From an uncultured Rubrobacteraceae bacterium (GTDB taxonomy: Bacteria; Actinomycetota; Rubrobacteria; Rubrobacterales; Rubrobacteraceae), in the NCBI GenBank assembly GCA_902806075.1, contig CADCVG010000035.1:1-40629 (forward strand): a stretch of 40,629 bases of DNA, written 5' to 3'. This document shows positions 2,832 to 10,669 of this stretch, piece after piece. The notes under the pieces are model-generated. The model made no database searches. It saw only the letters and a program-made list of their open reading frames with translations, and was not told the DNA's origin. A program made the translations under genes and the position numbers. Within the stretch, counting starts at the first letter, position 1; the number at the start of each line of letters is the position of its first letter.

Positions 2832-2933
2832 ATACGCCTCCTCTACGCGCCCCGGTACACAGCCCGAAGCAACAATGTTTCCGGGGAACCCGAAGGAGGC
2901 AAAGAGAAGCAATGGTATTACCCGGGCGTGGGA

Positions 2934-3080
2934 GGCGCTTTGTCCCCGGCGTCGCCGCCGGAATTTGTCGCCGCCCTATCGACCGCCCGTCTGCCGAGAC
3001 GCACCCGCCGAATAACTCGATGAACGTCTGCCTCGTCAACTCCCTCCGCCCGGTGGGCTCGGGGAGTCCTGGCGCTTTGT
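2934..3080 (-). promoter_or_regulatory. glmS ribozyme (glucosamine-6-phosphate-activated self-cleaving riboswitch)
   Basis: About 100 nt upstream of glmS the minus strand carries the conserved glmS ribozyme core in order. The cleavage-site motif AGCGCCAGGAC has G+1 at 3075, so cleavage would fall between 3076 and 3075. A P1 stem ACTCCC/GGGAGT pairs 3062-3067 with 3039-3044. Then come TTGACGAGG (3039-3031), a P2a-like pairing AGACG/CGTCT (3029-3025 with 3001-2997) enclosing CATCGAG and TTCGGCGG, and a distal stem with a GCGA tetraloop. In this class glucosamine-6-phosphate acts as cofactor for self-cleavage, which destabilises glmS mRNA. The 3' boundary is approximate. No other gene is supported in the leader region 2832-3255. 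Confidence 0.93.
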
Positions 3081-3255
3081 GTTTCGCTCCTTCTTGCCGA
3101 CCTCTTGCAGGTCCCACTTGTCTACAAGCCCTTTATCGACCGTACCGTGTCTTTACTCTAGCGATCCTCCGATCTCCGCAAACTACACGGCTTTAATGTA
3201 ATCCGTCGGGGGCGGAAAGGAAAGGGCGAAATCCGAAAGCCACAACGGGTTGTGG

Positions 3256-9323: not shown

Positions 9324-9424
9324 AAGCAGCCCAGTTCCCCGCGATACTCGCGCCGCCGCGCTACAGAGCGCACCAGAAGAGCCCAAACGTCCGGCCGTGC
9401 CCCCGCACCCTTTGGTAGCTAGAA

Positions 9425-9592
9425 GGGGGCGCTCACCAACCGGTGGAAACGCCCCCAACGGATAGCGGTCCCTCCCTCCCCTGAAGGTCCGCTCTCGGGG
9501 GCCTCACCACCCCCCTCCCGAGAGGTGAGGCCCTAGCAGATCTCGTGCTTGAACCCAGACTTCAAACCGAGCCCCGGGTCTCCACGAGATCT
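9425..9592. ncRNA. Candidate structured RNA: four consecutive hairpins (orientation unresolved)
   Basis: Four adjacent inverted repeats fill this gene-free stretch. (0) 9425-9431 pairs with 9450-9456, with an inner CACC/GGTG. (1) 9464-9471 pairs with 9486-9493 with one T-T mismatch. (2) A perfect 10-bp stem pairs 9499-9508 with 9524-9533. (3) A perfect 10-bp stem AGATCTCGTG/CACGAGATCT (9538-9547 with 9583-9592) encloses two small hairpins, making a three-way junction. Read on the plus strand, the loops of hairpins 1 and 2 are C-rich (CTCCCTCCCC and a run of six C), as in SD-binding actinobacterial RNAs such as 6C. On the minus strand a weak promoter (TTGCAC, 17 bp, TAATTT; 9632-9604) would start just before hairpin 3. 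No protein frame explains it. Confidence 0.5.
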
Positions 9593-9902
9593 ACCCAACC
9601 TCGAAATTAGCACCAGTTCCCGACCCGTGCAACCCCTCACAATCCGTATACCTAAGCCAAAAACCCGTTTTCTAAAGAAGCGCATACGATATGCCGCCTC
9701 TCCCCACTACCCCTGCACCATATCTTGAGTTTGAACCAGAACGAAAATGTGCAACGCAGATTACATAACCTATGAGTTGAGGGTTAGGTAAGTTTAAGGT
9801 GAAGATTCACAAATGAGGAGGTTGGGTGCGCTGGAGAAGGCTAAAGAACAACCGTCTTTGGTCGATAAACGCTAGTAGGGTAAGCGATTCGAGCGTACGA
9901 AG
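9593..9902. other. AT-richer intergenic stretch, no gene supported
   Basis: About 310 bases between the hairpin cluster and the pilT remnant, visibly richer in A and T than the surroundings. It holds the weak minus-strand promoter-like pair at 9632-9604 (TTGCAC and TAATTT, 17 bp apart) described with the hairpin cluster. No open frame, tRNA or known RNA motif was recognised. Confidence 0.4.
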
Positions 9903-10669
9903 GTGATTTCGGTGCTACGGCAGACCAAGATCGACGAGTTGGTGAGTAGCTGGTCCAGATTGGGAGTAGCGATCTGCATTAAAGGTGGGTGCATCGCCGG
10001 CGATCCGGGTGCATGGCCTTCTGAAGGTTACGAGATTCTGCGCCCGGTGAGGCGCCGAGGACATGCTCGAGGGTATCATTCTGGAGGAGCTCGTTGAGGA
10101 GTGGGGGGAGGCGGACTTCCCCTACACCGTACAGGACGTGGGCCGTTTCAGGGTCAACGCGCTCTGGCAGCGGGGGTCGGTCTCCATCGTGGTTGCTTCA
10201 TCCCATTCGGGGTGCCGAAGCTCGAGTACCTCAACCTACCGGAGGTCATAGACAGGCAGGCGCGTGAGAAGCTCGGCATCATCCTCGCCACGGAGACTAT
10301 AAACCGTATGATCGACCTCTTCCCACCACACGAGCGGGGGCAGGTTCGGACCATGCTCACCGGTACGCTCAAGGGCATCGTCGGGCAACGCCTTGTACAG
10401 ACCAATGACGGCGAGGGAAGAGCCACGGCCTGGAGACCATGATTACTACCGACCGCATAAAGGACTTCATCCTGGTCCCCGAACAGGCCGGCCGGATCCG
10501 CACGGCCATCACCGAGGGTGAGTACTATGGGATGCAGACCTTTGACCAGGCCCTCTTGAAGCTGATAGAAGAAGATCGCATCAACTACCAGGAGGCCCTC
10601 AAGGTCGCCAGCCGTCCGCAGGACTTCCGCCTGATGGTCCAATCGCTGTGCTTCGGCGCGGCCCGGTAG
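9903..10669 (+). pseudogene. pilT: Decayed type IV pilus twitching ATPase (pilT)
   Basis: Pieces of PilT appear in order but in different frames. An N-terminal remnant reads SDLH, then KVGASPAIRVHG in another frame (about 9968-10020). Next is FPYTVQDVGRFRVNALWQRG (10116-10175), then after a frame change FGVPKLEYLNLPEVI (about 10208-10252). After GIILAT the Walker A box and the ATPase centre are missing, and the text resumes at INRMIDLFPPHERGQVRTML. A further shift near 10430 leads to TTDRIKDFIL, GEYYGMQTFDQALL and ASRPQDFRLM, ending at 10669. With several frameshifts and no P-loop, the product cannot be an active retraction motor. No other pil genes are nearby. Confidence 0.85.

Follow-up and report, generated by a model that had tools for sequence, protein, structure and literature searches.

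The window, which is the whole stretch of 40,629 nucleotides analyzed here, encodes a previously unreported structured RNA, designated RNA-G. It is practically certain that RNA-G represents a real RNA family and that the family lies on the minus strand. A second small RNA, RNA-C, is predicted outside the window in the same genome, and the two RNAs probably pair with each other, judging from the complementarity of their sequences. We propose, with evenly balanced confidence, that they constitute a family-wide circuit in the Rubrobacteraceae, in which a C-rich-loop sRNA and its dedicated sponge, both under heavily regulated promoters, would be connected by tail and kissing-loop contacts and would co-evolve.

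A sequence-only reading of the window had described two perfect 10-bp stems, a 7-bp stem, and a stem with one mismatch at 9425–9592, with no protein frame. All four stems are found in the sequence as described (Table 1), and the folding of the region beats 200 dinucleotide shuffles (z = −4.9 for the plus strand and −3.9 for the minus strand). No conserved reading frame was found in the RNA-G homologues, in agreement with the description.

Table 1 Positions of the features of RNA-G, its upstream DNA, and RNA-C (window coordinates except for RNA-C)
Feature	Position	Strand	Basis
Perfect 10-bp stem	9538-9547/9583-9592		sequence
Perfect 10-bp stem	9499-9508/9524-9533		sequence
7-bp stem	9425-9431/9450-9456		sequence
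Mismatch-containing stem	9464-9493		sequence
RNA-G, sRNA gene, ~177 nt	~9421..9597	minus	31-locus alignment, covariation, promoter, terminator
P1 helix around the conserved hairpin with GGGGCUCGGUUUGAAG	9536..9594	minus	covariation
GGGCUCGGUU, complement of the RNA-C tail, within the P1-enclosed hairpin	9565-9574	minus	trans pairing
H hairpin: 10-bp stem, G-rich loop at 9509-9523	9499..9533	minus	stem covariation
GGAGGGGGG in the H loop, complement of the RNA-C loop CCCCCCUCC	9510-9518	minus	loop complementarity
I hairpin, GGGGAGG in loop	9464..9493	minus	fold; found in most homologues
Intrinsic terminator, GGGGGCG...CGCCCCC then TTCT	9421..9456	minus	sequence
Extended −10, TGC TAATTT	9604..9612	minus	TGNTA kept in 31/31 loci
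−35, TTGCAC, exactly 17 bp from −10	9627..9632	minus	spacing identical in 31/31 loci
Conserved upstream regulatory DNA	9633..9801	minus	alignments
Upstream block CACCTTAAACTTACCTAACC	9782-9801	minus	alignments
Upstream block ACTCAAGATATGGTGC	9715-9730	minus	alignments
Upstream block CATATCGTATG	9682-9692	minus	alignments
Upstream block GGCTTAGGTATACGGATT	9641-9658	minus	alignments
RNA-C, ~75 nt, in the window's genome, outside the window	G000:C84:15207-15358 (L146)		complement search

Among the 31 aligned RNA-G loci, changes on both sides are observed at 24 of the 28 stem pairs, which are the compensating changes in related Rubrobacter genomes that the sequence-only reading had suggested looking for. 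None of 500 shuffles equals this covariation, and slid partners are far worse. In the H stem, two-sided changes are found at 10/10 pairs, with 98.7% paired. The counted structure of 28 pairs leaves out the pair between the −35 and −10 elements. RNAalifold draws a hairpin from this pair, but the fixed 17-bp spacing and TGNTA rule the hairpin out in favor of a promoter. When G-U pairs are counted, 93.3% of the cells are paired if the RNA is the minus strand, versus 76.1% if it is the plus strand. Since the promoter, the terminators, and the G-U pairs all point to the minus strand, RNA-G is assigned to this strand and not to the plus strand assumed before, and the C-rich loops formerly ascribed to this RNA are the antisense view of its G-rich loops.

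The hairpin enclosed by P1 carries the near-invariant GGGGCUCGGUUUAA, the most conserved hairpin loop of RNA-G. The GGAGGGG loop of the H hairpin, GGAGGGG(GG) in its full form, is retained even by the most distant members. Terminator-like hairpins are found at the RNA-G 3′ end in most homologues. The three-way junction previously supposed is not supported, as the minus-strand helix, supported by compensating changes, encloses one conserved hairpin. The segments TCTCGGG and CCCGAGA, supposed to act as a two-state switch, are both present in the window's genome, but CCCGAGA is missing from the other 31 homologues. The switch was dropped, because both segments occur only in the window's own genome. 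The start of RNA-G (~9597) is placed by the promoter and its end (~9421) by the terminator. Although the hairpins at 9425–9592 are borne out, the gene needs about 5 more bases on the 5′ side and a tail to 9421, and the earlier span leaves out the promoter and the conserved upstream DNA.

The promoter consensus, TTGC.. -17 bp- TGNTAN..T, is found in all 31 aligned loci, where the spacing was scored by script for 28 loci and by eye from the sequence for L063, L081, and L083. About 170 bp upstream of RNA-G is conserved, and the spacing of the blocks is mostly fixed. The first block is confined to the RNA-G locus in 11 of 12 genomes, while G013 has one 3-mismatch site besides. No regulon with the shared upstream motif was found: apart from the G013 site and a second contig in G006, the motif occurs at the RNA-G locus only, and the G006 contig is one with another RNA-G copy. 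The possibility that the blocks are part of an RNA was dropped, as the fixed distances between them, their uniqueness, and the absence of covarying structure indicate regulatory DNA. Judging from this conservation, RNA-G is most likely under the control of an unusually long upstream region.

RNA-G homologues were searched for by BLAST, covariance models, and a pattern scan. BLAST against 61 related genomes is positive in 10, the window's own included, and an open scan across 84,980 species gives 14 matching stretches, R. marinus among them, all with titles of Rubrobacter, Rubrobacteraceae, or broadly Actinobacteria. The first covariance model detects RNA-G in 30/40 Rubrobacteraceae genomes, as a single copy in nearly every positive genome, and the second in 32/40, with none in about 358 other Actinomycetota. 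A divergent RNA-G in G024, added by synteny, brings the number to 33/40. A second copy in one MAG, L011 (G006:C656), is on a low-coverage contig that resembles genus g12 and is probably contamination. Wherever the contig permits the check, except at L011, the 3′ neighbor of RNA-G is a convergent GT2-GtrA-GAF gene, whereas the 5′ neighbor differs between loci, suggesting that RNA-G is its own transcription unit.

At the gathering score of Rfam 15, no family matches RNA-G on either strand, nor is the RNA portion of its homologues matched by any family. The former claim of an unreported structured RNA is upheld. The sole match in the window is a glmS ribozyme at 2920–3087 (minus; 93.7 bits, over the cut-off). 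A T-box leader match in L170 (1076–1351, plus) scores 66.9 bits, with a cut-off of 93.

RNA-C came to light when eight genomes were searched for sequence complementary to the conserved hairpin loop of RNA-G, a search that also gave RNA-G itself and scattered matches. The element sits between a molybdopterin oxidoreductase gene and an endonuclease V gene, names taken from the protein sequences by reading. Its parts are a −10 element, the 5′ tail UUAAACCGAGCCCC, and a terminator, whose hairpin has the loop sequence UUCCCCCCUCCAGA and a run of U after it. The hairpin covaries, and its loop sequence CCCCCCUCC is invariant and C-rich, with six C. An RNA-C model matches 33/40 Rubrobacteraceae genomes, with each of the 13 genera represented, and has no match among about 358 others; G034 and G063 have two copies each. 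RNA-G was not detected in G003, G011, G012, and G023, which bear RNA-C. No Rfam family, 6C included, matches RNA-C, which from its sequence is a second unreported sRNA candidate, equally new. CGTAAC repeats about 11 bp apart are found upstream of it; MtrA and other regulators of the OmpR family bind repeats of this type.

The tail and the loop, the two unpaired parts of RNA-C, each complement one of the two conserved loops of RNA-G. In the tail contact, the RNA-C 5′ tail AACCGAGCCC complements GGGCUCGGUU of RNA-G, and the match between the tail and the RNA-G hairpin loop is 10–13 bp in most of 21 genomes. Between the C-rich loop and the H loop, a complement of 6–11 nt is found in all 27 genomes compared. 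RNA-C was fished out by one RNA-G loop and yet complements the other conserved loop too, which is counted in favor of pairing. After the cost of opening the sites, the C-loop contact is favorable in 13/13 genomes tested (−8.9 to −20.3 kcal/mol) and the tail contact in 10 of 13 (−0.4 to −9.6 kcal/mol). By this accessibility-corrected energy, the C-loop contact alone holds in G016, G027, and G010. Among the genomes with both RNAs, the tail anchor is unmatched in G010, G016, G017, G022, G027, and G030, where mainly the C-loop contact is kept.

Compensating changes in trans are observed in G008 and G026 (A-U for G-C in each), and in G018 and G024 (two in each). The cells with double changes in trans number 7 versus 2.2 expected, as high in 21 of 5000 shuffles, and the number of trans pairs is weakly above shuffling (182/5000), both uncorrected for kinship. 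The signal is absent in an 18-nt trans register that includes one wrongly anchored genome. Nested co-folding of the two RNAs predicts no gain. This is expected because kissing loops cannot be represented by the method, yet it gives no support. The invariant loops and the naturally compensated variants in G018 and G024 make the pairing directly testable.

RNA-G carries conserved complements to the single-stranded stretches of an sRNA encoded by the same genome. In this respect it resembles RNA sponges or anti-sRNAs, such as SroC and the ChiX decoy, whose sequences complement the single-stranded stretches through which a regulatory RNA acts. We favor, with some reserve, the reading that RNA-G is an antagonist capturing RNA-C by two contacts. 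RNA-G would be transcribed from its own promoter and stopped at its own terminator; its GGGCUCGGUU loop would bind the RNA-C 5′ tail AACCGAGCCC, and GGAGGGGGG in the H loop would kiss the C-rich terminator loop. Free RNA-C, like 6C, may act through this loop on the G-rich ribosome-binding sites of mRNAs, from which capture by RNA-G would keep it. We infer the transcription of both RNAs, their meeting, the role of RNA-G as antagonist and not target, and the targets of RNA-C. The pair differs from known sponges in that each RNA has a dedicated gene with regulation of its own and the two genes are conserved jointly family-wide, and in its two contacts, a 5′ tail and a loop–loop contact. No comparable sponge pair was found in a narrow literature search.

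The same complementarity may be read in other ways. RNA-C could be a terminated leader at the 5′ end of the endonuclease V mRNA, where RNA-G, acting in trans, would change termination by binding the tail and the terminator loop; a DNA-repair gene would then be controlled by riboregulated attenuation. RNA-C lies directly before this gene on the same strand in 31/33 loci, and the tail contact extends to the base of the RNA-C terminator stem. However, a strong terminator precedes the gene, the anti-Shine-Dalgarno-like C-rich loop would be superfluous in a leader, and RNA-G too retains synteny, so we regard a leader as unlikely. It is improbable to a similar degree that the direction is reversed, with RNA-G as an effector, or another decoy, whose loops act on mRNAs, and with RNA-C as the regulator of RNA-G. 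Complementarity is symmetric, and the longer conserved upstream control region belongs to RNA-G, but its G-rich loop would need C-rich sites in mRNAs, whereas CCCCCCUCC of RNA-C suits ribosome-binding sites generally.

Two further readings concern RNA-G alone and are far less probable than these. A protein-binding RNA, either a GGA-loop decoy of the CsrB/RsmZ type or an RNA polymerase ligand of the 6S/Ms1 type, would leave the complementarity to RNA-C unexplained, and we give it little weight. RNA-G has multiple hairpins, two with GGA loops, like CsrB, CsrC, and RsmZ, but its loops are long G runs and CsrA (PF02599) is found in 0/40 Rubrobacteraceae genomes, while positive controls were detected. 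A CsrA decoy is accordingly rejected. RNA-G is also, like Ms1 and 6S, a stand-alone, regulated structured RNA of actinobacteria, but it is without the long central-bubble hairpin, its synteny is other than that of Ms1, whose flanking genes are unlike those of RNA-G (PMC9130861), and the 6S model (RF00013) does not match its locus. The only genome of 40 with detectable 6S RNA, G018, has it elsewhere (G018:C6:98165-98333, 65.1 bits) and RNA-G as well; identity with 6S or Ms1 is rejected. That the locus is a plus-strand 6C RNA or a relative of it has almost nothing in its favor beyond an alignment of 6C (RF01066) at 25.4 bits to the antisense of RNA-G. The cut-off of 47 bits is not reached here, nor in any Rubrobacteraceae genome examined, and the promoter, terminator, and G-U pairs lie on the minus strand, where the transcript has G-rich loops and not the two C-rich-loop hairpins of 6C. 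The former idea that C-rich loops pair with Shine-Dalgarno sequences accordingly fails for RNA-G but fits its partner RNA-C. Mycobacterial B11, a form of 6C, represses through two C-rich loops (PMC10470900). The six-C loop of RNA-C is likewise fit for G-rich ribosome-binding sites, but RNA-C has one C-rich hairpin, which doubles as the terminator, and a pairing 5′ tail.

No relevant report on Rubrobacter small RNAs was found in the literature searched. RNA-G and RNA-C represent two new RNA families, the latter as predicted, from a radiation- and heat-tolerant bacterial lineage. If the pairing is true, it would provide a compact actinobacterial circuit of RNA-on-RNA control and a reason for the retention of such G-rich loops.

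A pilT-like twitching-motility gene at ~9903–10669 of the window (plus) is split into several frames, while it is intact at the same place in several relatives. The broken gene is either a pseudogene or a sequencing error.
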